Origin: Zingiber officinale
Taxonomy: Eukaryota > Streptophyta > Magnoliopsida > Zingiberales > Zingiberaceae
NCBI RefSeq assembly: GCF_018446385.1
Contig: NC_056006.1
Location: 1,116,001 to 1,180,000 of the forward strand
Reading direction: 5' to 3'
Length of the DNA stretch: 64,000 nucleotides
Position numbers and translations under genes: made by a program. Shown piece after piece: positions 2,326 through 63,610 of the stretch. The notes under the pieces are model-generated. The model was given only the letters and a program-made list of their open reading frames with translations, did no database searches and was not told the DNA's origin. Each line of letters starts with the position of its first letter. Positions within the stretch are counted from its first letter, which is position 1.

Positions 2326-2600
2326 GAGGAGAGTTCAAGAGAAAAAAAGGGAACAAACAGTCAGGAAAACCTAAAATCACAAATTTTGCGACAGAATTTA
2401 AATTTCATCACAAAATGGGGATGAAATTTTAGGTTTATGGTTTCTCGCCACCTCAATAGTGATAGTTTTATTGGTGCAATATCGGTCCTACAAGTATTAG
2501 GGCCGAAATTTATTTTTTGTCGCTAATTAGCGATGGATAACAAATTTTGTAGCTAATTAGGGTTTCCTGTCGCCTCAATAACGACGATATTAGCGACGAA
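2326..2600. other. Unclassified repeat-like sequence with GCGACGAA / TTCGTCGC motifs
   Basis: No gene is seen. Short motifs such as GCGACAGAATTT, GTCGCTAATTAGCGA and TAGCGACGAAAAAC recur in both orientations, resembling subterminal repeats of a DNA transposon. It abuts the broken reverse-transcriptase end of the copia relic at about 2610, so it is probably the sequence that truncated that element. I found no CACTA terminus or target duplication. Confidence 0.35.
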
Positions 2601-5463
2601 AAACAAAATTCAGTAGGTTCCATGTGTCATTCATGTGAAGTGATTTCATCTCCTCTTGTATCGCTATCATCCATTTACCAGAGTCATGGCAACTAATCGC
2701 TTCTGAGAGTGGTGCAGGTTCCTCATTAAAATCAATTTTTTCAGCTACATTTAGGGCATAAGCAACTAAATCAGCCTCGGCATATCTCTGAGGAAGCCTA
2801 ATATCTCTACGATGCCTATCTTTCGTAATAGAATAATGTGGAGATGCTTGTGAGGAGCTACTAGCATCCACTAAATATGAGTTAGACTGCATAGTAGAGT
2901 CTGGTGTAGATCCAATTCAAAGTTCCACCTGTGTGTTTGACTTTTTTTATCTGTTTCATAAGTATGTTTGGAAGAAAGATCATTAAGCATGATAGTCTCA
3001 TAAAAAACATCATATCGACTGATGACGACTTTACTAGTCTCTTTGGATACAAAACTTGTATCCCTTCACACCAGACTTAAAACCTATAAAAATACACTTC
3101 ATAGACCAGGGCTCCAACTTTCCATTATCAATATGAGCATAAGTAGGACATCCAAAAATTATCAAATCAAAATAACTAGCAGAAGTACCAAACCATACCT
3201 CTTGTGGAGTTCTCTTGTCAATAGTAGTTGACAGAGAGCGATTGATAAGATAACAAGCATATGCAACAGTTTCGACCGAAAAATACTTCAGTAAACCAGC
3301 ATTGAGGAGCATACATCGAACCTTTTCCATCAAAATCATATTCATCCTCTCTTCCACACTATTTTGTTGAGAGTTACGTCGAACTGTGTTATGCCTCACA
3401 ATTCTATCCATTCTACATAAGGCAATTCCATCCATTCTACATAAGGCATTGAACTCATTAGACCAAAACTCTAAACCATTATCTATTCGGAGACACTTGA
3501 CTTGCCTTCCAGTCTACTTTTTTATCATAATTTTTCACTCCTTAAAAGTAGGAAACACATCACTCTTCTGCTTCAGAAAAAACACTCACAACTTTGACCT
3601 TTCTAAAAAAATCATCAATAATTGTGAGCATATACAATGCACCTCCCTTCGAAGACACCCTGGATGGTCCCCAAAGATCAGAGTATATGTATTCTAGTGT
3701 CCCCTTCGTGTTGTGGATGTCTATCGAGAACTTGACTCTCTTCTACTTGGCAAAAACACAATGCTAGCATAATTTCAATGTCGTAATGCTTTACGCACCA
3801 AGAAGTCTTCTCTTACTCAATTCAATCATGTCATTCTCACACATGTGACCCAGACGTATATGCCAAAGCCTCGTGATGTCATTATCAGATAACGAAGGAC
3901 TAGCAACAACAACATCACCCATAACTATAGAACCTTGTAAAACATACAAATCGATAGTTTTTATATATCCCTTCATCACCACAAGAGAACCTTTGCTGGC
4001 CTTCACAACTCCACCTTCACCAGTGTACTTGTACCCTTTTGAGTCAAGAGTACTCAGAGAGATCAGATTTCTCTTTATATCAGGGACATGCCTTACATCA
4101 CCTAGTGTCTGAACAACTCCATCAAACTTCTTAATTCTGACTGTTCTAATACATGCAATTCCACAAGATGCATTATTACCCATCAAAATATCACCTCTAG
4201 AATTAGTTTGATACGTTGAAAACCAATCCCGATTAGAACACATATGAAACATACTATCAGAATCAAGAATTCACTCATCGTTCAGTTTAGAATCACCATT
4301 AGACGCAACTAGAAGTTCCCCCATCACTGTGATCTTCAACAACATCAGCTTCATCAGATTTCTCTAGTTGTTTTCCCTTTTGATTTTCACCAGCTTGTTC
4401 TTATTTTGTATCTTGTAACACTCTACCATAACATGTCCTTTTTTCTTGCAATATCGACTTGTCTTATCCTTATTACTCCTGAATTTCGATCTGCCTCTGT
4501 TATTGCCACTAGAATTTCTTTCTGGCAGTCTCCCTCATGCAATAAGACCCTTACATTTGGCCTTAAATCCACAGACGAGCTTATCCATCCTCTCCTTAGA
4601 GAATAAAGCATCATAAACCTCATCTAAAGTTAGAGAGTCATGACTATATAAAATAGTATCTCTGAAAGTAGCATACGAGGTAAGCAACAAACACAACAAT
4701 ATCAAACCTAAATCCTCTTTGTCAAACTTAACTTCCATAGATTTCAAATCAGAGATAATTTCTTTAAAAATATTCAAATGATCTTCTAAAGATGTATCTT
4801 AGACCATACGATGAGAATACAAACGTTGCTTTAAGTGCAGTTTGCTAGTTAGATTTTTCGTCATAGACAACTGCACCAATCTCAACCACAACGTCACAGT
4901 GAATTTTTCTTTCAAACAATTCTGGAGAATTTGATTCAACAGATGCAGATGAATTTGAGATAAGACTTTTCGATTCTTGTGCTACTTTTTCTCAGTACTC
5001 CATGAAGATGACATCTTTTCAAACCCTAACAAAGCATCATCCAAATCCATCTGTGCTAGAACATCCCGCATCTTGACTTGCCATAATGAAAATATGGTGT
5101 TTCGATCCAACAACGAAATATCCTACTTCATGGTCGCCATAACTCCGAAAACAAACCAGACTCTGATACTAGTTTGTTAGAAATTTATGACAATAAACGA
5201 AAAATGAAGCACAAAAAGAAATAAAAAATTCTGAACACAAGTAGATTTACATGGAAAACCTTTGACAAGGGAAAGCCACGAGAAGAGAGCAAGAGAATAT
5301 TTCACTATCGAACAATTTTGGTACAACTTTCAAATAAAGGGAAAAACAACAGCTAAAAAAGGTAATATCATTGTACTCTAAAAATATACTTTATAAGTAA
5401 AGTGTAAATAAGATTAAAAAATTAGATCGGTTTAATGGATTGTTGGGTCAGCAAACTCTAACA
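2600..5463 (-). mobile_element. Degraded Ty1/copia retrotransposon, 3' part lost
   Basis: Reading the minus strand from 5463: LTR, primer site, gag, protease/GAG-pre-integrase, integrase and the first part of reverse transcriptase. Gag pieces lie at 4535-4777. A zinc knuckle near 4400-4460 has Ser in place of the first Cys (SRYCKKKGH). The GAG-pre-integrase block at 3791-4252 contains LWHIRLGHMCENDM. The integrase C-terminal part at 3034-3435 contains YLINRSLSTT and GCPTYAH. The RT entry at 2608-2892 contains AISCHDSGKWMIAIQEEMKSL. The protease motif reads LDSDS in place of LDSG, with a stop codon just before it. Several frameshifts separate the blocks and the RT core is missing, so the copy is dead. 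Confidence 0.88.
5175..5463 (-). repeat. 5' LTR of the copia relic (289 bp) and primer-binding site
   Basis: The segment begins TGTTAGA and ends TCTAACA, a 7-bp terminal inverted repeat. Just outside, at about 5159-5172, the minus strand reads TAGTATCAGAGTC, a one-mismatch version of the initiator Met-tRNA primer site, which fixes the orientation. No second LTR is present in the window because the element is truncated near 2610. Confidence 0.8.
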
Positions 5464-6065: not shown

Positions 6066-8260
6066 GTGTTAAAGTTGGGAGATGAGGTAGAGTCCATTTT
6101 CACAAAGCACTTCGCCAGCAACGATAGGAAAAAAGCCATGAAATTCCTCAGACCTCAACAGCCCAAGGAGTCTCACATCATCACCTTCTTAGTTGGTAAT
6201 AACATTTCATATATATATTAATTTATTAATTATACATTAATGAAAGATATGTACGTGCAGGTTTATTCACTGGCAGTTTTGTGACACTATTCACCGTGTA
6301 TGCTATCTTGGCTCATTTATGTGGCATCTTTTCTTCTGAATCTGATTACATGGAAACAGTTTACCCTATATTCAGGTACATCATCGATCCTTTTAATTAT
6401 CAATGTAAATAATTAAGTTGATGATTAATTAAAATATATATTGTTTTCTTGAATGCATGCAGTGTGTTTGCGTTAATTAGCCTGCACATATTCTTGTATG
6501 GATGCAACATATTAGCCTGGCGAGGGTGTAGGGTTAATCATAACTTCATCTTTGAGTTCTCACCCAACACCGCTCTCAAGTACCGTGATGCCTTCCTCAT
6601 CAGCGCCTCCCTCATGACCGCCGTCGTCGCCGCCCTCGTCGCCCACCTCCTCCTCCGGTCTGCTGGTGTATACTCCCAGCAGCACGTGGATACTATTCCA
6701 GGAGCCCTCTTTCTGGTATATATATCTATAAATAAATAAATAAATACTATGTGATTGCTCAAATTCAGACACTTTATACACTATCATGTGCTGTGCAGGT
6801 ATTCACTGTATTGCTCTTGTTGCCCTTCAATGTATTCTACTGCTCAACACGCTATTGCTTTCTCCGTGTGATTCGCAATATTATCTTCTCCCCTCTGTAC
6901 AAAGTAATTATAGATTAATAACTACATTATGTAAATTGTATGGTAATTAGGAATCCTTATAATTAAGTTACATTTCTATTAATTTTATTAATTGTAGGTG
7001 TTGATGGTTGACTTCTTCATGGCTGACCAGCTGACCAGTCAGGTACGTAATTAAGAGTATACTAATTATGAAATTTAATGTAAAGGGCTTAATTTAATTA
7101 TGAATGCAGATTCCATTACTGAGGCATATGGAACTGGCAACATGTTATTTCATGGTTTCTGGATTTAAAGGGCAGCCTTATGAGACTTGCACTCGCAGCC
7201 AGCAGTACAAGCTGATGGCCTACATCATCTCCTTCTTACCCTATTACTGGCGTGCGATGCAGGTATATATATAGACCTACTAAGCATAATTATTATCAAT
7301 CAATTTAGGGGGCGTTTGGTTAAATGATGGGAATGATTATGGATATGAGTTTGATAGTAGGGTGGAATGATAATAGGAATGAAAATGAAACCCATCAAGT
7401 TATATGGGTTTGGTTGATTCCCATAAATCTAGTAATCATTCTCAAAATGTCATTCCCAAACCCACAATCCAAACACTATCTTTTTCTATCATTCCATTCT
7501 CTCATTCTCAAACTCATCAACCAAACACCCTCTTAATTAATCAAACTTTTTATATTGTCTAATCCTGATGAGTTAATTGAAGTGTTTGAGGCGGTACATG
7601 GAGGAAGGATACGACATGAACCAACTAGCGAACGCAGGGAAGTATATATCGGCAATGGTGGCGGCAGCGGCACGGTTGAAGTACGCAGTGGAGGGGACGC
7701 CAATGTGGTTAGGCATCGTCATCCTCACCTCCACTGGTGCCACTCTTTACCAGCTGTTTTGGGACATGGTGAAGGATTGGGGCCTCCTTGACCTCGGATC
7801 CTCTAACCGCTTTCTGAGAGATGAGCTTATTCTCAAAAACAAATCATATTATTATGTTTCCATGGTAATTTAATAATTGCTAAAGCTAAGATATCTACAT
7901 ATATATAATTTTTATTAATTGTAATTATATATAAATATTGCAGTGTTTGAACTTTGTGCTTCGACTTGCGTGGATTGAGAGTGTGATGCGATTGAGCTTA
8001 AACCAAGTCGAGCACAGACTGATTGATTTTTTGCTCGCTTCTTTGGAGATCATTCGACGAGGCCACTGGAATTTCTACAGGTACGTACATATATATACTG
8101 AATGAATTTAATGATTATATGTATTTTGATAATATTGACCAATGTGTATATATATATATACACCTACAGATTGGAGAATGAGCAACTGAATAATGCAGAC
8201 AAGTTCAGGGCTGTGAAGTGTGTGCCATTGCCATTCTCTGAGATGGTCTCTGAGGGATGA
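6066..8260 (+). CDS. PHO1-like: PHO1-family phosphate exporter, C-terminal half (5' part missing)
   Basis: Nine exons join in frame: 6066-6195, 6261-6375, 6463-6715, 6799-6903, 6998-7042, 7110-7262, 7583-7864, 7944-8080 and 8170-8260 (436 codons plus TGA). All introns are GT/AG. The protein runs from [22 protein letters not shown] through several hydrophobic helices into a full EXS domain ([39 protein letters not shown]). PHO1 proteins load inorganic phosphate into the xylem and sit mainly in Golgi/endosomal membranes. They are usually near 780 residues, with an N-terminal SPX inositol-pyrophosphate sensor. Here the roughly 340-residue SPX part is absent from the 600 bp upstream, which meets a copia LTR. 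The visible exons have no stops or frameshifts. The locus is therefore either a gene with distant 5' exons or a young 5'-truncated pseudogene. AATAAA signals follow at about 8327 and 8471. Confidence 0.87.
7308..7532 (+). mobile_element. Tourist-like (PIF/Harbinger) MITE in a PHO1-like intron
   Basis: This 225-bp element has terminal inverted repeats GGGGGCGTTTGGTT and AACCAAACACCCTC. TTA is duplicated at 7305-7307 and 7533-7535, as expected for PIF/Harbinger elements. A second copy, inverted, is at 12793-13011. The two share a translated pattern (MMGM..MSLIV.., WVWLIPIN) over their whole length, but no protein is intended. It lies in the intron between the sixth and seventh visible exons and leaves the splice sites intact. 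Confidence 0.88.
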
Positions 8261-9019
8261 CTAGCAGTAAGTTAACTGGTTAGTGCAGTAGCTGTTGATG
8301 GGGTAGCGAAGAAGGCGATGGAGAAATAAATTAAAGGCAGAACATGGAAAGATGGATTTCAGACATCAATGAGCGAGAGAATTAACTAATGTAGAGGTAG
8401 CAGTACTACTGATTAAAGACCAGTTAACAGCTGATGCATCTGCATTAATTCCATATTGTATGAGGTGGATCAATAAAGAAAATCAATCTCATTAACTACG
8501 GTGAAGTGATCCCTTTATTCAAGAGCAGAACTGGATGAAAGGGCCGGGAGGGGAAATAGATCCGACTAATAATGTTTGCTTAATTAGTTTGCTGGCGGTT
8601 ATGTAATAAATTACGACATCAAATGATGGCGGAGTTTTTGGGTTTTCTTTTTTATAAGAAAATGTCAGAAGGAAAAGGGTTTATCATTTAAGTTAAGTTT
8701 GATTAGGTGTAATGTAATCGAACTTGTAATATAATTAAATTTGTAATGTAATTTAATGTAATCTTGATTACATTACTAAGTTGGATAATATAATCTATGT
8801 AATCTTTGATTACAAAGATGATTACATTTTTTTATTTGGTATCCATTATTTTTAATAAAAAATGTAATTCGTATTATCATAAAATAACAAAAATATTCTG
8901 CAACTTCTACCGACGGTCGTTGCACCTCTATCGAAGCTTGTGGCAATCACCGGCAACCATCGACTGCCATTACCAGCAACTGTCAGCCGTCGCCACCGGC
9001 AACCGCCGGCCACCGCCGC

Positions 9020-47895: not shown

Positions 47896-50800
47896 ATGTC
47901 TTCAGCAATAGCATTGGTGTCTTTGCTGTTCCAGCTGCTGCTTGCAGTTGCATCTCCTGTGCCTGACAGCAGTTGCCCGACAAAATGCGGCGACGTGGAT
48001 ATTCCTTACCCTTTCGGCGTCGGCATTAACTGCTCCTGGGGAATTCGTTTCAATCTGACCTGCGACGAGGTGGAAACCGGCGTCAAGAAACCATTCTTGT
48101 TCAATGTCGAGGTCCACAGTGTCTCGCTGCTCATGGGCCAATTACGCTTCCTCAACCCCATATCCTCGGCGTGCTACAATCCAAATTACAACAATGTCAC
48201 TTACACATCCTGGTGGATTAATTTCGAAGACACCCCATATAGGTTCTCTGATCTCCACAACAAGTTCACGGGCATCGGCTGCGATACCCTTGCCTACATA
48301 ATCGGCTCCCACGAGAGCAATATTAGCTACCAGAGTGGTTGTGTGTCCATGTGCGACGATGAAGAGAGCATCGTCAGTGACTCCTGCTCCGGCATGGGTT
48401 GCTGCCAGACTTCCATACCCAAGAATCTCAAATACTATGAAGTCAGCTTTGATGAGTATTTCAACAACTCGGCTATTTGGAGATTTAGCAGATGCAGCTA
48501 CGCCGTCTTGTTGGATGCCGAGTGGTTCGAGTTTCAGACATCTTACATCACCACGACCCAATTGATGCAAATCAACAGTGATGGCAGGGTGCCGGTGGTC
48601 ATAGACTGGGCCATCGGCAACGAGACGTGCGAGGTAGCAAGTCACGACTTGAGTTCTTATGCCTGCATCAGCAATGACAGCGAGTGCATCGACTCCTCCA
48701 ATGGCCCTGGCTATCTCTGCAACTGTTCGACAGGATACCAAGGCAATCCTTACGTCTCCGACGGATGCCAAGGTCTGTCTAATATATTCTGCTTTCAGTT
48801 ATGTTTTGACTCTCTGATTGCAACGGTGCCAACTACTGTTTCTTTTGCACTTCAATTTTAGACATCAACGAATGCAATCAGCAAAGAAATCCATGCTCAG
48901 ATGGCATCTGCCAGAACCTGCCTGGTAATTATAGTTGTGACTGCCCCGAAGGCAAGCACGGTGACGCTTACAATGGAACATGCATCCCAAATCAGAAGCT
49001 TTCCTTGGCGGTGAAAGCAGTTATAGGTAAGGTTCTTTCCCTGAACGGGCATCCGATTCCCTAACGTTGTTTCTTCAACTCTTCATCTGTTTATCCACTC
49101 AAGAATATAATTAAGATAAGATATCCTGAGTGATCCTCTCTATATATTGGCAGTAGAAAAAGAAGAGAATGAATATGCCCAATTTTCATGTCTTGTAGTG
49201 TTGGGGTTGAATCAAAGTTTTATATTAAAAGTTTTGGTAAAAATTATGAAATTAAAAGGATGGATGATATCTCTATTGGTATAAAATTTTTTGGAGAGAA
49301 CCTAAGAGTAAAGTCATGAGGGCCTAGGCTCAAAGTGGATAATATCATGCAATTATGGACATATGTGGATATCCTTTCGGTCACAACAAATAGTATCAGA
49401 GTCATAGTCCAGACCAGATGCCATGTGGGACGGTCTTGAACGAAGTTGAGGGTGAGGTCGGAGTAGGTCAGGGTGACCGGATATTCGTGGAGAATCCGAA
49501 GTAGGTCAAGGTGACCAGATGCTTGTGGGGAGGTCTGGAGCAGGTCAGAGTGATCAGTACTTGCGGGAGGTGAGTAGGTCAGGGTGACTGGATACTCACA
49601 GGGAGACTCAAAACAGGTCAGGGTGATCGGATGCTTGCGAATAAGCCCGAAACATGTCAAGATTGACCGGATCCAACCCCTTACGGGGAGGTCCGATATA
49701 GGTCAGGATGATCGGATGCTTGTGGGAAAGACCCCGAAGCAGGTCAGGGTGATCAGGTACTCGCGGGGAGGCCCGGAGTAAATCAGGATGACTGGATGCT
49801 TGCGGGGAGACCTGAAGCAGGTCATGGTGACTAGATGCTCGCAGGGAGGTCCGGAGTAGGTGAAGGTAACTGAGTGCGGATTCTTGCGGGGAGGTCCAGA
49901 ACAGATCAGGATGATGAGATGCTCGCGGGAAGGCCCGAACCATAAGAGTAATTGTAGTCCTTTGTTTAAGGGGAGGATTATTGGAGATAATATCATGTCA
50001 TTATAGAGATATATGGATACCTTTAAATACAACATGTAGCTTTGAAATCCACCAAATGAGGTTGGATTTACTTAGATGGAAATTCAGGAGGGAGAGGGAA
50101 TTAAGAAACAGATAACAAAACAACACCTAGAACATGAATCACTCTCCTATCTTTCCATCCAACTAAAACACCAAACATAAAACAAAAGATTAATTATCTG
50201 TGAAAGGATAAATTACAGCATCTTAATTTTCATTGGTTTTATTTAGTTTGGATGCTCACGTTCTGTGATGTTGATGGGTTCACAGGCACCTCCATCAGCT
50301 TGACTTTCTTACTAGTATTTGGCATGTGCATCTGTATGATTTATCAGAGAAGAAAACTTATCCAGTCAAGGAAAAGATATTTCAGTGAACATGGGGGCAT
50401 GCAATTACTGGAAGAGATGAGAAAACTAAGTCTTGCATTTAGGATCTTTTCAAAAGAAGAATTAGAGAGGGCAACAAATAGATTTGACAAGAGCAGAATT
50501 CTTGGACAAGGCGGATATGGAACTGTTTACAAAGGAGATATGGGAGACAATCAGTTTGTCGCCATAAAGCAGCCGAAGGTTATAAATGAGAGACAAAAGA
50601 AAGAATTTGGAAAGGAAATGCTTATTCTTTCCCAAGTCAATCATAGGAACATAGTCAAGCTCTTGGGCTGTTGTTTGGAAGTGGAGGTTCCCATGTTGGT
50701 CTATGAGTTTGTCCCTAATGGTAACTTGTTTGAACTAATCCACAGCAGGAACATAGATAACCTCCCTTTGGCTGTGCGTTTAAACATTGCTCGTGATTCT

Positions 50801-51445
50801 GCTGATGCTCTTGCTTATTTGCACTATTCGGCTTCGCCTCGAATCATTCATGGAGACGTGAAGTCTGCCAACATCCTCCTACATGAAAATTACACTGCAA
50901 AAGTTTCTGATTTCGGAGCTTCAAGGCTAAATCCCAAGGATGAAGACCAGTTTGCTACTTTGGTTCAAGGGACCTGCGGTTACTTAGACCCCGAGTACCT
51001 TCAAACATGCAAATTAACTGAAAAAAGTGATGTTTATAGCTTTGGTGTAGTGCTCTTAGAATTACTGACACGTAAGAAGGCAATTTATTTTGAAGAAAAT
51101 GGAGAAGAAACGAGTCTTGCATCAAGCTTCATTTTGGCCAAGAAAGAGGATCGACTCGAGGAACTCTTGGACAATCAAGTGACTAGTGAAGGAGATGCAG
51201 AGCTGATTGAAAGGATTGGAGAGATGGCAGTGCAGTGCTTGAGTATGAAGGGAGAAGAAAGACCTACGATGAAGAATGTGGCCGACCAGCTAAACAGCAT
51301 AAGAAAGTTCAAACAGCACCCATGGACACCACCAAATGCTGAGGACATTGAGAGCTTCCTTCCTGTTCCATCAGATGCTCAAATGTCCACCGGTAACACT
51401 AGTTATATTCCAAAGGTTGCATTGTGCATTGAATATGCAAGGTAA
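47896..51445 (+). CDS. WAK-like: Wall-associated receptor kinase (WAK/WAKL)
   Basis: Three exons join in frame: 47896-48772, 48862-49026 and 50286-51445 (733 codons plus TAA; 751 if the ATG at 47842 is used). A signal peptide (ALVSLLFQLLLAVAS) is followed by a Cys-rich galacturonan-binding GUB_WAK domain (CPTKCGDVDIPYPFGVG) and a first EGF-like repeat ending YLCNCSTGYQGNPYVSDGCQ. Exon 2 encodes a calcium-binding EGF repeat (DINECNQQRNPCSDGICQN). A membrane helix lies near 350-367. The Ser/Thr kinase has glycine loop LGQGGYGTVYKG at 420, Lys442, catalytic loop IIHGDVKSANILL (Asp538; Gly replaces the Arg of HRD), DFG at 556-558 and GTCGYLDPEYL. WAKs bind pectin and signal wall integrity and pathogen damage. 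Intron 2 carries a TRIM element. No inactivating lesion is seen. Confidence 0.94.
49199..50034 (+). mobile_element. TRIM-like miniature LTR element in intron 2 of the kinase, target duplication TGTAG
   Basis: 5' LTR 49199-49388 (TGTTGGGG..TCACAACA), primer site TAGTATCAGAGTC 49391-49403, an internal array of about 40-bp units (GGTCCGGAGTAGGTCAGGG, TGACCGGATGCTTGCGGGGA), purine tract AAGGGGAGGAT 49968-49978, and a 3' LTR 49979-50034 shortened to 56 bp by internal deletion. TGTAG flanks both sides (49194-49198, 50035-50039). It is the same family as 1-2325. It has no proteins. Confidence 0.92.
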
Positions 51446-52440
51446 AGATATGGTCCCTAAAGTTGTCAGTCTTGAGCGTTCCTCCCAAGTTGAACTATCA
51501 GTTGTAGCAATTAAGTCTCTTGGTGAGGGTTATGTTTGTTTACTAATTATTTAGTGGTAAGATAAAGAAGTGTGTGCTATGGTTCAAATCTAAGATTTTC
51601 TCACTTCCAAAAGTTTTCAGATTTTAAAATTATTTGAAAGCATTTTTATATTTAATAAGAAATAGAATTAAAACAAAATGAATAAATTTGAACGGGCCTC
51701 CAAATGAAGGTCATGCTCGACCTTTGCTTTGCCGTGGTAATTGATGGGTTCTTTTCATCGGGTTCCTCCTATCATTTTTTCTCCGCTGCATAGCCACGCA
51801 AGCCTAGGGCGGATCACGTGGTCAACTGCACGAGCGATACGCCATCCACTACCCAACCACATGAGCGAGCCATTGCATATGGGGAGACAACCGCTTGTCT
51901 GTACCATCAACACTGTCTAGCCATTGACCTGAGCTCGCTTTCCCGTGGGCAGCCTTACCAGGGCCAGGGACTGTCGGAGGTAAAGTGCGCTCAACTAAAA
52001 TACTTCCTCCTTCCCTAACGATTAGGGTTAAGCGAGTAGAGAGTTTAGGTCTTGACAGGCCTCCAATATTATGAAAGAGTGTCGATTGAGTGATGATGAT
52101 CCAATCGGGTTAATCGAGGTGGCATCAAACATGGAATGATGTGTTGTCATAGAAAAAGCAAAAAAACAATTTGAGAGTGATACGAGAATCAAATCAATTA
52201 TGACTTCACTGACTAGATAGAAAAAAAATATGGACATGATTTGGAGCTTTTTCTCTTCTTGTTGCCTTCATATTTCATTTGTCCATACAAAGTAGGGAGG
52301 TTTAAAATCGATCCACTCAAATTAAATTGATTTAATTGAAATCGAATGAGTTAATTTTTTTTTTTAAATTAACCAAACCGACATTAATATATTTTTTCAA
52401 CAAATATACATTTTTATCTAATTTTTAGATTCTATTCGGT
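51446..52440. other. 3' flank of the kinase gene
   Basis: No gene was recognised. Around 51710-52020 composition rises in GC, with an accidental open frame; from 52260 it is AT-rich (poly-T near 52354). Nothing else can be supported. Confidence 0.45.
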
Positions 52441-53570
52441 TATAGGGACTACCTTCTATTGTCCTATTCCCTCCTCTGAACTTGCTTGGAAGGATATTTA
52501 TCTTTTCCTTAAGTTTCCTTCTGCTGTGGAGTGGCCTACTCGATGGCAGTGAACCCTTCCCGTAATGCCTTATGTGGGGGATTTCAGTAATGACCCACTT
52601 TTCACAAATGCTCTGGCTCAGCTGAGGTGTTGGCGACTAGATTTGATGAGACTACTATCCGAGGACGTGCTGTCCTTCTTTAGGTTGAGCCACATCTCTT
52701 CTGCTGAGTTGCCTCGCTCCCTGGGTAAGTTTTGCCCGATCTTAAATTACTTCGCTCTGTTCTTTGGATATAGTTACTACAACCCTGGTTTCTCCATGCA
52801 ACCAACACCCTGCTTCGCGCCTCAGATGTCCAGCCTCTTCCCTTTAGTGAACAGAAAATAATGAGGAGAAGTAGAATCATATTGGATAAGAGACTTCTTC
52901 CACATGCTGCCTTTGCCCGGCTAGGAACAACTATCACTGCCCCTCCTCCGTCAGTCCCACAATCAACTCCCCGATCTGCCCCTCAAATAGTTCCGGAACC
53001 TTCTGTCAGTCCGACCCCCCGACCTCCTTCAGGGTCAATGGACCCAGTCTTTCCTTCCGAGCGGCTTCCCGGGCAGCCTGGCAGGCACATCTCACTGTCG
53101 ATCCTACCAGAACTGCTACCCCTCCCACGGCTCGGCGATCGCGATCCTCGCCTGAAGACTCTGACTCGGACGACCAACCCTTGGCTCACAGGTCTCGTCG
53201 AAGGCATATTAGCCCAAACCTAAGCGCTACCGGTCTGTCCGTTAAACCGGCCCCTCCAGCCCGGCATGTCCAAAAGACTCGTTTGCTCGCCAACAGTCCT
53301 GGGACGACCACAGATCCTCCTTCCACGCGTTGCTCCACCTTCCTCTCAACCTGCTTCTTCCTCTTTACCTGTTAATGCTCCTTCACGAGTACCAGGCGAC
53401 ACGACAAGTCCCTTGGCTACTCCCCTGCCTAATGAATCACGACCGGGGACATCTCACCCGGCCTCTCCTTATCCTCCCGACCCAACAACCTCATCTTCAC
53501 AGCCGCAAGACCCCTCCTATCACCAGTATTATTCCGCCAAGCCTTCTGAGTCAGGGCTAATGAGATAACA
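52440..53570 (+). pseudogene. Broken Pro/Ser-rich reading frames, probably a gypsy-type gag-region relic
   Basis: Fragments in several frames read FPSAVEWPTRW (near 52520), then GDFSNDPLFTNALAQLRCWRLDLMRLL (52565-), then Pro/Ser/Thr-rich text (52920-53560: PPPSVPQSTPRSAPQIVPEPSVSP, PSSQPASSSLPVN). Frames change without splice-like joins. The globular start plus proline-rich tail fits a retroelement gag or associated ORF. I do not recognise the family, so the call rests on context (gypsy DNA follows immediately). Confidence 0.35.
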
Positions 53571-53572
53571 TG

Positions 53573-54546
53573 ACGTGTCACGCCCCAGAGGAGTCCCTGC
53601 CAGAGGAAATTCCGATAGCACCTCCCCTGTACGGGTGACAATCTGAACCATTTCTACAGACATAATATACCTCAGCCACAGGCGGCTAGAATATACACAC
53701 AACCACGCAGTTTATATGCAGCCTACTCGGCTGATACAATAAAAAAATACAACCATACAGTTATATGTAAATCTAACAGCCCACTCGGTTGTACCAAAAC
53801 CAAACACAATGGACAACACATACAAACTAAAAACGAAGACTGCTAGCCGGCTAGGATTACACCACACAACAAAACAACACTCCAGAAACAAAACCAGAAC
53901 ACAAAGGTAAATACACAAATTTCATATACCAAAATAAAAATAAACAAAAGCGGAGGCAGGTCTCCTGATGTGACGTGGGGACCGGCAGGCAGGATACTCC
54001 AAGCGACTCCATAAACAACCTGGTACATGAAAAAGATAGTGTCCACGGGGTGAATTCAACAACTCAGCAGATACCTAATTGACATGTATAGTAAACTATA
54101 ACAAATAGTAATAACTATGGAGTACAGTCTCCTCGACAAAAGTTGGAAATGCACAATAGAAAAGGCTAAGAGAAATGTACTCACCAGGGTGTCCTATCAA
54201 AATAGCTAGGTCGTCAAACCGAAAGTGCCATAAATCCTGTATGCATGTCAATCATATGCATCCATCCAAATACAGCAAATAAATGCAGCAAACACAAGCA
54301 ATAAATGCATCATGGATATGATGCCAATGATATGTCCTGGTCACCCTTACTGCCATTCAGCCATCTCACACACGATGGTGAGACCGAGTAGGTAGGGCTG
54401 TGACAACCGTGCACTCTACCATCACTGCTCCTGATGAGTGACCGAGTGGACGGGATGCTGTCGGAGTACACCTATTCTCCTGCCCTAAATCATAAGTGGG
54501 GGAGCACAATGCTCTCATTTCTCGGTACATGATGACGGGGAGGGAT
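53573..54546 (-). mobile_element. Gypsy-derived terminal sequence left of the inverted-LTR unit
   Basis: It begins TGACGTGTCACGCCCCAGAGG, an LTR-like start. Its right third, 54211-54546, is a 336-bp sequence that recurs in the same orientation at 60259-60594. It is probably the LTR or 3' region of the minus-strand gypsy element whose pol lies at 61125-63197. No protein was recognised. Confidence 0.55.
54211..54546. repeat. 336-bp direct repeat, copy 1
   Basis: It runs from TCGTCAAACCGAAAG to TGACGGGGAGGGAT and ends exactly where the inverted-LTR unit begins. It differs from 60259-60594 at roughly 13 places by eye. Confidence 0.9.
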
Positions 54547-56422
54547 TGATGTGAGCTCGAGTGTCGTGCTACGGGCTTATCAAATTACAATTAAAGTTAC
54601 CGAACCCCTCTACACTAAAGTAGTATAGAGATGACTCGGATCGTCTCCCAAGGAATGTAATGATAGGATGATAACTTCATAATTAGTTATGACTTTTGGA
54701 TTTTTGATATGAAACTGGGGGTTTGGATTTTGAATTTTTGAACTACGATATGAAATAACAAACAAATATGAAATTAAACCTAAAGAACAAAAGAACAATG
54801 CAAGTATGAAATCTAATTCTAATTAATAAAAGGCATCCTATCTATCCATTAGTAGTGATCTCATAGTGCATTGTCACTCTACGTTACGATTTCACTAATA
54901 ATAGAATTAAACTAAGGAATGAAATAGCAAAACATTAAATGAAACCTATTCTAGTAAATGAAAGACAGTGCATGTAAGAAAACCTAGTCTAACTTAAACT
55001 ATGATTGCAAGGAAATTAGAGACAACATATAGTAAACAAATAATGAAACTAAACATGGAAAGTAACTTCGAGCATTAAAGAAAGCTAATCTACCCTAGCA
55101 TAATTGCATTCAAACGAAGAACAAAATTTATAGCAATTGCAAAAGACAAGATAAGCAAACATTAAGTGAAATAAAATGCACAAATTTAACCCTACTGTTG
55201 TAAGAAACATTTTGTCGAACACCTTACGAGCATGAATCAAAATGACATGAGTACGTGCACTAAAACATGCGAGAACAATTTAGTACAAGCATCAAACAAT
55301 CAACTAAAAGAAACATCACTATCAATTCGAATCAAGTGAGGAAACTGCAACAAACAAAAGCTGTCCAGATCTGTTGAAGAATTGCTGATCGAACTTGAAG
55401 ACTGCTGTGGAATGAAGAAAATGGACACCAAAGCTTGAAGAAAATCAGATCTATAGAAGATGGATCTCAGTCTGCCCAAATCTGATCCGGATGAAGGAAG
55501 TAGTGCTGCTCGGAATTGAAGTAGCTTCACTCAAAATGACCAGCTCCTGAACTCCCGGAATCTATGAACAGCTGCCAAGGAACCGGCTGAGCTTGCTTCA
55601 ACAACAGTGATGATGAATGGAAGTAATGGAGGTGCTGTGAATTCGGATGAACCGCCGCTGCTTCTCTGCCTCTGCCGCCTGAACCCCAGTCGGAAGAAGT
55701 GAAGAAGAACGCCGAGAGGTGAAGGATCTCACCAGAGAAACCCTCTCCGGCGAGGTGAAGATCGTTGCTGCTGCCGTCGCTCGCAATTGCCGCCAAGAGA
55801 TCGTTGCCGCTGTCGTCACCGCTGGAATCCAGAAGAGGAAGATTGGGCAGTGGATGGATGCCCGGCCGGCGGCAGAAAAGGTAAGGGAAGAGAACCGCCG
55901 GCCGGTGAAAGAAGAAAGAAGGAGGCGCGCGTGCCCTAGCCGCGAGGAAGAAACGCGCACAGTAGATTAGGTGGATCTCTCGCTACTGTGCATCGCGAGA
56001 AGGTAAGGAGAAGGGTTTTCTTAGTGGGTTCGGATCCGGGTTGGATTAAGAGAATGGTATCCAATAGAGCTTAGATCCGATTCATTAAAGATAGAGTTCA
56101 AATTGGGCTTTTATAATCGGGCTTGAAGAGTGGGCTTGAGGATTGGGTTTGATTGTTTTTCCTTTGATCCAAATTGAATTAGAGCACCATTTGTTGGATG
56201 AATCTTGGATGCCTTGATCTCGATCAACGGCCTAGATGCTCCAAATTGTTTCCCTACAAGTAAGATGCGTATTTTTAGATAAAATACCAAAAAATATAGG
56301 AAAAATTATATACAAGGCTCTAAATTAATATCAACTCGTAAAATGTGATATAAAACAAGAATTAAGTATATGAGATGATAAAAAATATTAAGTATAAGAA
56401 CCAAAATAAAATATAAAAATGC
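54547..56422 (-). repeat. Left LTR arm (minus orientation)
   Basis: The U5-type end is on the outside at 54547. On the minus strand the arm begins TGGGCATTTTTATATTTTAT at about 56427-56408, immediately after the purine tract. The middle (55500-55980) is GC-rich, with frames rich in Ser/Arg on both strands that I do not regard as genes. Confidence 0.88.
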
Positions 56423-58381
56423 CCATTATCAATTTCCCCACACTTATTCTTGCATGTCTCGAGCAAGTAAAATAAAACTAGGAAGCAACCAAAAACTCAT
56501 CTCCCTATCAATTCCCTAACAACACTCTGAAAATAGTAAAAGAAAGTTACTTAGGATAATCAAGTTTTAAGAATCAAGGTATTCATGGTTCCAATTCTCA
56601 CATAAGTCAACAAGCATGGTAATTTCAATCAACTTGAATAGATTAAGCATGATAAAGCCTTACAAGGTGGGTATATGCACTCATGCTCACATAAATAATA
56701 GACATGAAAGTGGAGCTCTCTCCAAAGCAACTCATGATATTGCACTACCATATGTTTGCTTATTTTCTACTTCTCCACTAATGTAAACATAAGTACACAT
56801 AAATCAAGAGGACTTGTCATGAATAATAATGAAACCACACATGTAAATAATGGAACAAGAAGGATAGACAATATAGGAATTCAAAGAGAATATGAGAGCA
56901 TTGGGGTAATCAACAAGAAGAATGCAATTAAATAATATGTCAAAAACTCACCCAAACATGCAACACTCAACTCTCTTTGCACATTCTAAATGTGATATAC
57001 ATCAACCACTATAACATCTCCAAAATACATGTATGTATTAACAACTTAACTCATGAAAATCTCTCAATAACAATGTTAAATGAGTATACATCAATCTTTC
57101 CATGGAGACTTCCTTCTAGTTCATCACTAACAAAACAACAAATGCTTGAGAAATTTTTTTTCCTCTCTTTTTATTTTTATTTTTATTTTTTGATGTTTTT
57201 TTTCTTTTTTTTTCCCTTTTTTTTTCAACAAGAATAGAGAGAAATTTTTTTTTCAACAAGCATTCGTCCAGACATATTTGCCTCCCCCACACTTAAACTT
57301 GTCCGTCTCGGACAATACAACAAATAATGATATTCTCTAAAACTCAACAATAGGGGGCTTAAAAAAAAACAATAGAAATGTGACAGTGAAAATGTAACTC
57401 TTTATGCAATCACCCAATGCTCTCATCAAAGGACTAGGGAATTAATGAATCAATAAAGATATGATAGTGAAAATATAATGACAATGAAAAGATATGATAA
57501 GGGAAGTACAATGATAATGATAATGAAAATATAATGGCAATGAGAAGATATGACAAGGGAAGTACAATGAAACATGAAAGCAATAGGTGAAATGCTTACT
57601 GGTAAGAACATCAAAGTAGAGGAACAACTAAGAGATGAATAAGAAAATTTGCCTCTATCATGTTCATGCAAGCTTATGTTACCATAATTTCAAAAAGAAT
57701 CAAAGCAAGTTCTAGAGTGTCAAGTATCACAAGTGCTATTACACACAAGAAGATTAAGGATAAGTGTGGAAAAAAAAACCTCACTAGGTGAATAACAACA
57801 TATCATGCATAATCTAACAAGATAGAGTCCATCACCACAACAAATGACTAATGCAATAAATGTACCCAACAATACCAAGGGAACCAAAACTTGATAGTCA
57901 AACTTAACTGTCTTTTCGATTCTCAAAGCATTATAAAGGGACATCTAGGGAGATATGACTCAAAATCAAGCAACGTATAAAAAAAAACAAAAAAAAAACA
58001 AGAAAGCAAAGTATGGAAACAAACAAACATACAAGTATAAAGATAAAGGAAAGCAAGAAAAAGAAAGGAAAGGAACAAACGCCCCTTTATTCCTGGCGGC
58101 TGAAGACGGTTCAGAAGTAGTATCCACGCCGGTAGTGGAATGATCCTTCTCGGTGGTTAAAGAAGATTCAATTTGAGCATCCAACTCGGAAATGGAGTTA
58201 TCCGAGCTAAGGAGAGAATTGCTTCTTCCACCATTTTCTCTTTAGTTCCTGGCGGCTGGAGGCGGTTTAGTAAAAGTATCCAATCCAGGGGCCTGTAAAA
58301 ACCTGCAAGGCCAAGGACAGAATGCACCTTCCACACGCATATAGGGTAAGGAAGAGATAAAACACTATCAAACTTAGATAA
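56423..58381 (-). other. Loop between the inverted LTR arms (retroelement internal sequence)
   Basis: On the minus strand the right part reads towards the purine tract by the left arm. A phrase GTGTGGGGGAGGCAAATATG near 57275-57295 resembles the internal purine-rich box of Athila/Tat elements. It contains T- and A-rich runs (57155-57260, 57360-57375, 57980-58010), an imperfect tandem of ATATGATAAGGGAAGTACAATGA (57490-57590) and a direct repeat TTCCTGGCGGCTG (58089 and 58247). No protein was recognised. Confidence 0.65.
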
Positions 58382-60258
58382 GCATTTATATTTTATTTTG
58401 GTTCTTATACTTAATATTTTTTATCATCTCATATACTTAATTCTTATTTTATATCACATTTTACGAGTTGATATTAATTTAGAGCCTTGTATATAATTTT
58501 TCCTATATTTTTTGGTATTTTATCTAAAAATGCGCATCTTACTTGTAGGGAAACAATTTGGAGCATCTAGGCCGTTGATCGATATCAAGGCATCCAAGAT
58601 TCATCCAACAAATGGTGCTCTAATTCAATTTGGATCAAAGGAAAAACAATCAAACCCAATCCTCAAGCCCACTCTTCAAGCCCGATTATAAAAGCCCAAT
58701 TTGAACTCTATCTTTAATGAATCGGATCTAAGCTCTATTGGATACCATTCTCTTAATCCAACCCGGATCCGAACCCACTAAGAAAACCCTTCTCCTTACC
58801 TTCTCGCGATGCACAGTAGCGAGAGATCCACCTAATCTACTGTGCGCGTTTCTTCCTCGCGGCTAGGGCACGCGGCCCTCCTTCTTTCTTCTTTCACCGG
58901 CCGGCGGTTCTCTTCCCTTACCTTTTCTGCTGCCGGCCGGGCATCCATCCACTGCCCAATCTTCCTCTTCTGGATTCCAGCGGTGACGGCAGCGGCAACG
59001 ATCTCTTGGCGGCAATTGCGAGCGACGGCAGCAGCAACGATCTTCACCTCGCCGGAGAGGGTTTCTCTGGTGAGATCCTTCACCTCTCGGCGTTCTTCTT
59101 CACTTCTTCCGACTGGGGTTCAGGCGGCAGAGGCAGAGAAGCGGCGGCGGTTCATCCGAATTCACAGCACCTCCATTACTTCCATTCATCATCACTGTTG
59201 TTGAAGCAAGCTCAGCCGGTTCCTTGGCAGCTGTTCATAGATTCCGGGAGTTCAGGAGCTGGTCATTTTGAGTGAAGCTACTTCAATTCCGAGCAGCACT
59301 ACTTCCTTCATCCGGATCAGATTTGGGCAGACTGAGATCCATCTTCTATAGATCTGATTTTCTTCAAGCTTTGGTGTCCGTTTTCTTCATTCCACAGCAG
59401 TCTTCAAGTTCGATCAGCAATTCTTCAACAGATCTGGACAGCTTTTGTTTGTTGCAATTTCCTCACTTGATTCGAATTGATAGTGATGTTTCTTTTAGTT
59501 GATTGTTTGATGCTTGCACTAAATTGTTCTCCCATGTTTTAGTGCACGTACTCATGTCATTTTGATTCATGCTCGTAAGGTGTTCGACAAAATGTTTCTT
59601 ACAACAGTAGGGTTAAATTTGTGCATTTTATTTCACTTAATGTTTGCTTATCTTGTCTTTTGCAATTGCTATAAGTTTTGTTCTTCGTTTGAATGCAATT
59701 ATGCTAGGGTAGATTAGCATTCTTTAATGCTCAAAGTTACTTTCCATGTTTAGTTTCATTATTTGTTTACTTTATGTTGTCTCTAATTTTCTTACAATCA
59801 TAATTTAAGTTAGACTAGGTTTTCTTACACGCACTGTCTTTCATTTACTAGAATAGGTTTCATTTAATGTTTTGTTATTTCATTCCTTAGTTTAATTCTA
59901 TTATTAGTGAAATCGTAGCGTAGAGTGACAATGCGGTATGAGATCACTACTAATGGATAGATAGGATGCCTTTTATTAATTAGAATTAGATTTCATACTT
60001 GCATTGCTCTTTTGTTCTTTAGGTTTAATTTCATACTTGTTTGTTATTTCATATCGTAATTCAAAAATTCAAAACCTAAACCCCCAGTTTCATATCAAAA
60101 ATCCAAAAGCCATAACTAATCCTGAAGTTATCATCCTATCATTACATTCCTTGGGAGACGATCCGAGTCATCTCTATACTACTTTAGTGTAGAGAGGTTC
60201 GGTAACTTTAATTGTAATTTGATAAGCTCCCGTAGCACGACACTCGAGCTCAAATCAA
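58382..60258 (+). repeat. Right LTR arm (plus orientation)
   Basis: Reverse complement of the left arm. Its inner end (GCATTTATATTTTATTTTGG) lacks the first few bases of the LTR and the purine tract, so the illegitimate joint of the unit is at about 58381/58382. Confidence 0.88.
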
Positions 60259-60594
60259 TCGTCAGACCGAGAGTGTCATAAATCCTGTATGCATGTCAAT
60301 CATATGCATCCATTCAAATGTAACAAATAAATGCAGCAAACAGAAGCAATAAATGCATCATGCATATGATGCCAATGATATGTCCTGGTCACCCCTACTG
60401 CCAGTCAGCCATCTCACACACGATGGTGAGACCGAGTGGGTAGGGCTGTGACAACCGTGCACTCTACCATCACTGCTCCTGATGAGTGACCGAGTGGACG
60501 GGATGCTGTCGGAGTACACCTATCCTCCTGCCCTAAATCATAAGTGGGGGAGCACAATGCTCTCATTTCTCGGTACACGATGACGGGGAGGGAT
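60259..60594. repeat. 336-bp direct repeat, copy 2
   Basis: It runs from TCGTCAGACCGAGAG to TGACGGGGAGGGAT, immediately after the unit's last base. The gypsy sequence then continues with CCCGGCGTGCTACC. Confidence 0.9.
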
Positions 60595-61124
60595 CCCGGC
60601 GTGCTACCACGCTGTAGTCACACTACCCATGAGCGTCTCAGCTGAGCACCACCGAGCAAAACTGACGTGCTACCACGCTGCGTCACGCTACTCATGAGCG
60701 GACCAGCGGAGCACCGACAGAGATGAAACTGACGATGTGCTCAACAATAATGAAGCAGACTATCACGCAGCATGCAATCATGCGAATGATGCATGACACT
60801 AAGCATGGCAAAATCCTGAAGATCATAGCAATATCCATATATATATATAAAATGTGTACCATAGGACAATGAACCAAATCAAAGGTACACAGATCAGATA
60901 AGGTATAAAAACTTAGATCCTGAACATAATAAACACATGGTTGTGTCACTACCCTATAAGCATGTATAATCAGGTAGGTGCTAACATGAAGTGCATAATA
61001 AGTAAATAAAACAAGCATGTAACAGGTATCGGGTAGTGACCAACCGAAGCAAAGACGAACATAATTATTACTAAAGGTTATAACCTACTAAACATATCAA
61101 CATGACATTATCAAAGATAAGTCA
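60595..61124 (-). other. Gypsy 3' non-coding region with short tandem motif
   Basis: GACGTGCTACCACGCTG.GTCACGCTACTCATGAGCG-type units repeat twice (60600-60700). After that it is AT-rich and without coding. It lies downstream of the gypsy integrase on the minus strand. Confidence 0.5.
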
Positions 61125-63197
61125 AGGTACCCGCCTCCAAATAGAAAGGTCCAATCCGAAATAGACCCCTCGTCGAGACACCGTCTCGAATCAAAGTCCT
61201 GTATCTCGATCCTGCGCTTCTGAGATCCTCCGTCTGATAATACAGACCAACTCTACCTCCTGCTGAGCTCTATGAGGTCCCAACAACTAGGCCTCTCCAA
61301 CCTCATCCCAGAGGGTGGGTATCCTGCAAGGCCTACCATACAACGCTTCAAACGGTACCATCTGGATAGCCGAATGAAAGCTGTTGTTGTAGGTGAACTC
61401 TACCAATGACAAATGGTCCTCCCAACTGCCTTAAAATTCCAATACACAAGATCTCAGCAAGTCCTCTAGAGTCTGAATGGTTCGCTCTGACTGTCCATCT
61501 GTCTGTGGATGGAAAGCTGTACTGAATCGGAGCTAAGTGCCCAAGGCCTGCTGCAGACTCTGTCAGAATCGAGACGTGAACCGAGGGTCTCTATCTGAAA
61601 TAATAGTCAAAGGGACACCATGTAATCTGATGAACTCCAGGCAATACAGATCTGCCAATCGATCCAGAGAATCAATCTTCCGGATCGCTAAGAAGTGCGC
61701 TGATTTGGTTAATCGATCAACGATTAGCCAAATCGCGTCATGACCTCGTCGTTTCCTCGACAAACCCACCATAAAGTCCATGGTAATATGTTCCCATTCC
61801 TACTCAGGAATAGAAATCCGTTGAAGTAAACAGGTAGGTCTCTGGTGCTCGGCCTTCACTTGCTGACAGACAAGACATCTCGCTACAAATTCCGCGATGT
61901 CTTTCTTCATACTATTCCACCAGTAGGAACGCCTCAAACCTCGATATATGCGGGTACCACCTAGGTGGATAGAAAATCGAGAGCGATGAGCCTCTTGAAG
62001 TAGCTCCTGCAAGACCGGGTGAGACTGAGGTACGCATAATCTGCCTCAGAAGTATATAATACCCACCTTATCTCGTGTGAACTCGGTCTGCTGCCCGGAA
62101 GCTATCTGGCTGCCAATAAACTGCAAATGCTGATCACCGGCCTAGGCCTCTCGGATCCTCGTCCTGATCGATAACTGAGCAACCATGGTAACCAGAATAC
62201 CCTGCTCTGTCTGTCCCTGCTCCTGAAGGTCCAACTCTGAGAAACCCTGAACCAAGTCTGTAACTGAAACTCGGTGGCAAGCCAAAGTCCCTCTAGACTT
62301 CTTGCTGAGTGCATCGGCAACCACATTAGCTTTCCCCCGGTGGTAGCTAATGGTACAGTCATCATCCTTTAGGAATTCCATCCATCTCCTTTGCCGGAGA
62401 TTAAGTTTCTTCTGGGTGAAAATATATTCGAGACTCTATGATCCGTGAGAATCTCAAAGGTAATGCCGTACAGATAATGTCGCCAAATCTTCAAAGCAAA
62501 GATAATGGCGGCTAGCTCCAATCATGTACTGGGTAGTTCTTCTCATGCGTCTTCAACTGCCGAGAAGCATAGGAGACTACCCTGCTGTGCTGCATCAAAA
62601 CAACGCCCAAACCTTGTAGAGAAGCGTCGGTGTAGTGTACGAATCTATCCTCTCCAGAAGTTAAAACCAAAACTGGAGTCGACACTAACCTCCACTTCAG
62701 CTCCTGGAAGCTGGTCTCGCGGTCCTCTGTCCAAGTGAACTTCACGCCTTTCCTGGTCAGGCGTGTCAGCGGCATAGCAATCCAGGAGAAACTCTCGACA
62801 AAACGTCGGTAATATAGGGCCAGTCCTAGAAAACTATGGATTTCCTGAACTGATTTCGGCTGCTCCCAACTAGTGACAGCCTCGATCTTCTGAGGGTGTA
62901 CTGAAATACCTCGACTAGAGACCACATGACCCAAAAAATCGATTGAGGATAGCCAGAAAGCACACTTGCTGAACTTCGCGTATAGTTGATGTCGTCGAAG
63001 AGTCTCCAAGACTATGCGAAGATGCTGTGCATGTTCCTCCTCGGAACGCAAGTAGATCAATATTTCATCGATGAAAACGACAACGAACTGATCTAGATAC
63101 TCCATAAAGATGCGGTTCATCGAATCCATAAATACTGCTGGAGCATCGGTAAGCCCAAATGACATTACCAAAAACTCATAATGTCTATATAACAAAC
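61125..63197 (-). pseudogene. Ty3/gypsy pol relic: partial RT, RNase H, integrase
   Basis: Minus strand in order. Reverse transcriptase, 63195-62760, starts abruptly at [20 protein letters not shown] and has the catalytic box changed to VFIDEIL (FIDD expected). RNase H is at 62760-62150 ([27 protein letters not shown]). The integrase zinc region is at 62012-61800 (HLGGTRIYRGLRRSYWW, CLVCQQVKAEH). The integrase core is at 61781-61400 ([47 protein letters not shown]-like). A C-terminal tail runs to about 61125. Frames break at about 62510, 62420, 62100 and 61550, and a stop follows in the core. The protein type is chromovirus-like. It is inactive because of the catalytic change, the frameshifts and the missing 5' part. 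Confidence 0.88.
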
Positions 63198-63266: not shown

Positions 63267-63610
63267 ATCATCTCATGTGAGAGCAACGCTCCATCACAAG
63301 AAATACTACATATGTGGGAGCAACGCTCTACCACCAACAAGGCATCCTATATGGGAGCAACGCTCCACCACCACAATCCAAAATATGTAAGAGCAACGCT
63401 CCACTACAGACAATCCATAACATGTGGGAGCAACGCTCCACCACAACAATCCAAAATATGTGGAAACAATGCTCCACCACAAGCAATCCAAAATATGTGG
63501 GAGCAACACTCCACAACAAGCAATCTAAAATATGTGGGAGCAATGCTCCACCACAAGCAATCCATAATATGTGGGAGCAACTCTCCACCACAAACAATCC
63601 ATAAGTGAAC
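63267..63610. repeat. Tandem array of about 38-bp units (TATGTGGGAGCAACGCTCCACCAC)
   Basis: Nine units with a core GGGAGCAACGCTCC, which is itself a short palindrome-like hairpin (GGAGC..GCTCC), plus spacers such as ACAAGCAATCCAAAATATG. Open frames on both strands reflect the period. It begins about 70 bp beyond the truncated end of the gypsy RT. Confidence 0.9.

Follow-up and report, generated by a model that had tools for sequence, protein, structure and literature searches.

Inverted Long Terminal Repeats Inside a 336-bp Target Duplication in Ginger: A Candidate Product of Uncoupled Retrotransposon Integration

Introduction

How does a retrotransposon come to lie in a chromosome with its two long terminal repeats (LTRs) facing each other, between direct copies of 336 bp of target DNA? 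This arrangement is found in the genome of ginger, Zingiber officinale, in a 64,000-nucleotide stretch (C21:1116001-1180000; hereafter the window, whose own numbering is used throughout), which we compared with the whole genome of 3.09 Gb in 211 contigs. A sequence-only reading of the window had proposed that two complementary DNA (cDNA) molecules integrated close together and were joined inside. We describe the insert, its target, and its relatives, and with moderate confidence we favor a simpler origin: a single aberrant retrotransposition in which a template switch onto the element's own LTR gave a cDNA with two U5 ends, whose uncoupled integration was followed by 336 bp of repair synthesis.

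Anatomy of the Insert

The insert occupies 54547-60257, with TGAT at its left and ATCA at its right outer end, as expected from the earlier view that the unit begins with TG and finishes with CA. Its two arms (54544-56417 and 60260-58385) align in inverted orientation at 98.1% identity, with 34 mismatches in 1876 columns and one 2-base gap, which bears out the proposed pair of inverted arms exposing U5 ends outward and raises their divergence from the ~1 percent first estimated to 1.8%. The left arm (54547-56431, minus strand), 1885 bp long, is a complete LTR with its U5 end outward; read on the minus strand, it runs from TGAT to ATCA, beginning TGATAATGGGC and finishing ACATCA. A polypurine tract (AAGTGTGGGGAAAT on the minus strand) abuts it at 56432-56445, and a similar tract holds the same position in L040, the relative with direct LTRs discussed below. 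The right arm (58382-60257, plus strand) is an inverted LTR that lacks its first ~10 bases, keeps U5 outward, and stops at CA; it has no polypurine tract, in keeping with the observation that only the left arm carries one. Between the arms, 56432-58381 (minus strand) holds ~1.95 kb of the 3' internal region of the parent family, 85.9% identical to L040:4847-6748, and no open frame longer than 101 amino acids from stop to stop is listed in the interior (56432-58384). The inner junction, anticipated at about 58381, lies at 58382-58385, where GCAT forms a microhomology (CAT in the L040 internal region, GCAT in the left LTR).

A normal LTR insertion has direct LTRs and a target duplication of 4-6 bp; here the arms are inverted, and the pentamer GGGAT beside the left end of the insert does not match ATCGT beside its right end, the duplication being 336 bp instead. 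The LTR, the TG/CA ends, and the polypurine tract are nevertheless common to direct-LTR relatives, which identifies the insert as a product derived from an LTR retrotransposon, and its element ends, intact or nearly so and bordered by a long direct duplication of the target, are those expected of aberrant (uncoupled) integration products. The intact CA ends suggest that integrase may have joined at least one end.

The Duplicated Target

The left copy of the duplication (54211-54546) ends directly before the TG at 54547, and the right copy (60259-60594) repeats it in direct orientation after a single A at 60258, which separates it from the CA ending at 60257. The duplication, described earlier as flush at both ends, is therefore flush on the left and one base removed on the right. 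Since the left flank and 21/21 relatives of the target have G at the corresponding place, the A is either a changed 337th duplicated base or one added base. The copies align without gaps at 14 mismatches in 336 (E 1.6e-156, far beyond chance); the host sequence is not repeated exactly, as was first stated, and the accompanying figure of about 13 differences, with correct coordinates, came close.

The target belongs to an abundant, LTR-like repeat family. Its left piece spans 53576-54546 (probably minus strand), with a boundary drawn where the listed matches, the window itself excepted, all begin (query base 274-318, ~53576), and its right piece (60595-61204, minus strand) continues directly from the sequence at 54546. 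To the right of the target lie matches to reverse transcriptase, RNase H, and integrase zinc-binding domains, with two further frames giving no match, and from these neighbors we take the target repeat to be of Ty3 type. Likeness to the target LTR family ends abruptly at 61204-61205, before the integrase region, and the host element is therefore itself rearranged or from another subfamily.

For one flank of the target the best 40 of 9731 candidates were scored, and for the other the best 40 of 16465. Twenty-eight relatives were fetched, seven of which are the same place twice, leaving 21; 11 of these lie in two clusters (C11 and C12) and are not independent. All 21 carry one 336-bp copy, running unbroken from the base equivalent to 54546 into the equivalent of 60595. 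Compared with these relatives, the two copies in the window share eight non-majority bases, six of them rare and two common: the shared bases at 54418, 54482, 54486, and 54519 occur in 0/21 relatives, that at 54331 in 1/21, and that at 54522 in 2/21, and the two common variants in 5/21 and 9/21. The rare bases common to both copies, together with the single copy in every relative, argue that the duplication was made from this single target copy (or its alleles) and not from two family members. That the event itself created the duplication, as the sequence-only reading supposed, is thereby supported, and its alternative, a pre-existing tandem repeat, finds no support in the target family (21/21 single-copy relatives, from thousands of candidates). 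Of the 14 differences between the copies, 10 arose on the left one and four on the right one. A genome search with the variant stretch of the right copy gave, besides its own site, nothing at up to 2 mismatches; at 3 mismatches it gave 8 places, each with one or two of the four bases peculiar to the right copy, and we rejected them as conversion donors. Elsewhere in the target family, one LTR (L018, C14:120778117) contains a local repeat, with query bases 1223-1404 matched twice.

Parent Family and Origin of the Arms

A relative with direct LTRs, of the kind whose search was suggested earlier as a check, is L040, whose LTRs (1550-3481 and 6753-8674, 94.9% identical) enclose a 3.27-kb internal region with a primer-binding-like site after U5. 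The segment matched by the window's interior is the 3' part of this region, ending just before the 3' LTR (6753). Three open frames of L040 gave no Pfam match, and the parent family is therefore non-autonomous as far as tested. A solo LTR (L004) has an exact 5-bp target duplication, ATCAC on each side, the family's one exact case; copies on C15 show GTCAC/ATCAC at their flanks. An integrase preference for ATC at U5 flanks was considered and dropped, the bases after CA varying across 20 stretches. The C15 copies (L003, L005-L008, and L040, at 120.07-120.28 Mb) have identical flanks, AATGGGTCAC before and ATCACTCAAGAT after, and therefore one insertion-bearing segment seems to have been amplified there.

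Are the two arms sisters, or two members of this family? Their outer 858 bp match at 96.9% identity, and the best relative reaches 92.4% among seven loci tested, with L003 and L040 counting one place twice. Among the best 40 of 3793 candidates, every other match of more than 50 bases lies at or below 92%, and whole-arm matches otherwise stand at 74-75%. Bases shared by the arms and absent from all eight outgroup LTR rows, which include both LTRs of one element, number 36/943. Among the matches scored, the arms thus appear to be each other's closest relatives, with one origin. When their differences are polarized, 11 derived changes fall on the left arm and 17 on the right, with six assigned to neither and four junction columns left out. 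Among the 40 main arm matches, those with a neighbor <=25 kb away make up 13 pairs on the same strand and a single pair on opposite strands, that of the present insert, a count over the best 40 of 3793 candidates rather than a census; a DNA transposon with terminal inverted repeats was rejected, with no further opposite-strand pair among these matches and no short target duplication.

A Single-Molecule Model

We posit that minus-strand synthesis of an LTR element proceeded through U5-R-U3, the polypurine tract, and then 1.95 kb of the internal region, at which point the growing strand would have jumped to its own LTR at the GCAT microhomology ~10 bases inside U3 and copied that LTR back as far as the U5 end. 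Synthesis of a second strand would yield a near-palindromic cDNA with U5 at each end. Each U5 end could then have been attached to a different strand of a single target, the two sites lying ~336 bp apart rather than 5 bp, and repair synthesis across the 336-base overhangs would duplicate the target. Later gene conversion may have kept the inner arms alike, with the outer arms and target copies diverging. The model retains from the sequence-only reading the two U5 ends, the internal join, and the event-made duplication and dispenses with its two cDNAs, since one molecule suffices with one join.

The distribution of differences is what such conversion would produce: the arms differ at 9 positions in their inner 1015 bp (0.9%) and at 25 in their outer 858 bp (2.9%; p 0.0014 for a split picked after seeing the data), and their uneven spread is also apparent in a Kolmogorov-Smirnov permutation (p 0.00075). 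Arm-to-arm gene conversion, mainly of the inner parts, would explain this gradient, and the outward rise in divergence fits the conversion between arms that had been suggested. The outer arms do not differ significantly from the target copies (25/858 vs 14/336, p 0.28), and the conflict between the ages of arms and target copies therefore largely dissolves.

Several points weigh against this account, beginning with the choice of the inner/outer boundary after the fact. Taken as a whole, the arms are less diverged than the 336-bp copies (34/1874 vs 14/336, p 0.013). The first 180 bp of the duplication contain 12/14 differences (Kolmogorov-Smirnov p 0.047), and most of the shared rare bases lie beyond them (permutation p 0.014); conversion between the copies across the last ~150 bp might account for this pattern. 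The side bias, moreover, is opposite in the two comparisons, toward the left in the duplication and toward the right in the arms. A microhomology of 3-4 bases is, taken alone, weak evidence for a template switch. A snap-back strand, finally, is a hairpin with one open end, and the model requires the extra step of second-strand synthesis. In a variant of the model, the hairpin, with its single U5 end, would itself be the substrate: integrase would join the 3' end, and host repair would join the other strand hundreds of bases off and copy through the hairpin. We regard this variant as rather unlikely. If true, it would be a regular, unrecognized source of long palindromes with long direct repeats from LTR elements, and such loci in plants would be mistaken for tandem duplications plus solo LTRs.

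Alternative Origins

The origin closest to that suggested from the sequence, two cDNAs of one source whose U5 ends entered opposite strands at a distance of 336 bp and whose broken inner ends were joined by microhomology, would yield an identical anatomy, and a microhomology is indeed present at the inner join. There are also precedents in human immunodeficiency virus (HIV), in which viral ends are reported to be linked, in either orientation, to additional viral DNA (PMC5041404). This route requires, however, two molecules, both broken inside, as well as end joining, and the near identity of the arms demands a single source for both; we consider it possible but unlikely. Less probable still are two independent insertions in opposite orientation, into two alleles or target copies, brought together later by illegitimate recombination, with 336 bp as the distance between the sites. 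Flush ends and an overlap of arbitrary length would follow automatically, and the excess of target over arm divergence and the mosaic pattern of the duplication would be accounted for. Against this stand the bases, present in 0-2/21 relatives, that both copies share and that point to one target copy or its alleles; the mutual closeness of the arms among the matches scored; and the right copy's variant stretch, for which the genome offers only the partial likenesses noted above. That a scarce lineage should hit twice within 336 bp is in itself improbable.

Could an ordinary insertion have been rearranged after the fact? The interior corresponds to the usual 3' portion of a relative's internal region, adjoining a normal 3' LTR, as would be expected of a direct-LTR element altered in the chromosome by fold-back repair, inversion, or tandem duplication. 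Yet fold-back repair would copy beyond U5 into an inverted flank, whereas here the arm stops at CA and the flank is direct, an orientation that makes chromosomal fold-back unlikely, and neither a 5-bp target duplication nor the 5' half of the element is left; we think a chromosomal rearrangement very improbable. An artefact of assembly or reads, such as a fold-back chimera, comes to mind because palindromes are typical artefacts of long-read libraries. An artefact would be expected to show near-identical arms; the 34 arm and 14 flank differences observed, most of which can be assigned to the left or right side, make it scarcely credible.

Comparison with Known Systems

In autointegration products, as in the insert, an inverted LTR abuts internal sequence, but autointegration would leave the U3 end flush; here ~10 bases of U3 are gone and the join bears a microhomology. 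The L040-type family is homologous to the insert in its LTR, polypurine tract, and 3' internal region, and both have TG/CA ends; L040 differs in having direct LTRs, the window insert lacking the 5' internal part and carrying one LTR inverted. Close parallels also come from viruses. When its integrase is inhibited or mutated, HIV-1 is reported to duplicate hundreds to thousands of bp of the target, and aberrant viral ends can be linked to more viral DNA, whichever way that DNA is oriented (PMC5041404). Aberrant integration of HIV-1 and of avian sarcoma-leukosis virus, through an impaired integrase or one bad viral end, resembles the ginger locus in leaving long target duplications instead of 5 bp (PMC5041404). 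Two differences temper the parallel: in the HIV cases (PMC5041404), usually a single end is aberrant, often truncated and attached by host enzymes, and the other is normal, whereas both U5 ends here look intact, which counts against our model; and the ginger insert is a natural, old plant insertion. Elements of the DIRS-1 class likewise have inverted terminal repeats around a retroelement interior, but DIRS-1 carries a tyrosine recombinase gene and an internal complementary region (PMC5633606), whereas the arms of the insert are LTRs of a direct-repeat family. We set aside membership in a DIRS-like group: no tyrosine recombinase gene was seen among the interior frames, which do not exceed the length given above and were not domain-searched. 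Among the open-licence papers listed, no title or opening of an abstract described this inverted-LTR structure, which does not by itself show that no account has been published.

If our reading is right, a cDNA that had U5 at both ends underwent uncoupled integration at this locus, in a reaction related to those of impaired retroviral integrases, and LTR elements have a route to long palindromes that are able to convert and possibly feed hairpin transcripts. Long target duplications are already known from defective HIV integration, and the ginger locus would be a natural plant case. The model predicts a searchable signature, an inverted LTR pair with one polypurine tract and a long flush direct repeat; annotation that demands direct LTRs and duplications of 4-6 bp would overlook such loci.

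Genomic Setting

The empty site, sought as a further check, did not turn up among the 40 top-scoring matches to each flank (of 9731 and 16465 candidates), which, the window excepted, reach <=92% and <=94%. The assembly is very probably phased, with C21 and C22 as homologues and related kinase copies on both. Beside the insertion, 50252-51445 holds an open frame resembling wall-associated kinases, related copies of which lie near the starts of C21 and C22; its nearest proteins are from Curcuma (94%) and Zingiber (85%). For 51600-52445, no second match appeared among the best 40 of 412 candidates, and the two haplotypes therefore probably differ around the kinase frame and this segment. With neither a near-identical second flank nor a second 51600-52445 among the matches scored, the insertion locus therefore seems hemizygous, or lost on C22.

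An Rfam scan gave no match, and the LTR-end pattern, looked for in viral_contigs, was absent there. The window also contains a 37-bp minisatellite of ~9 copies at 63275-63601, adjoining the reverse transcriptase frame, and a pair of related repeats in opposite orientation, at 1-2313 and 49199-49995, with ~66-75% identity.

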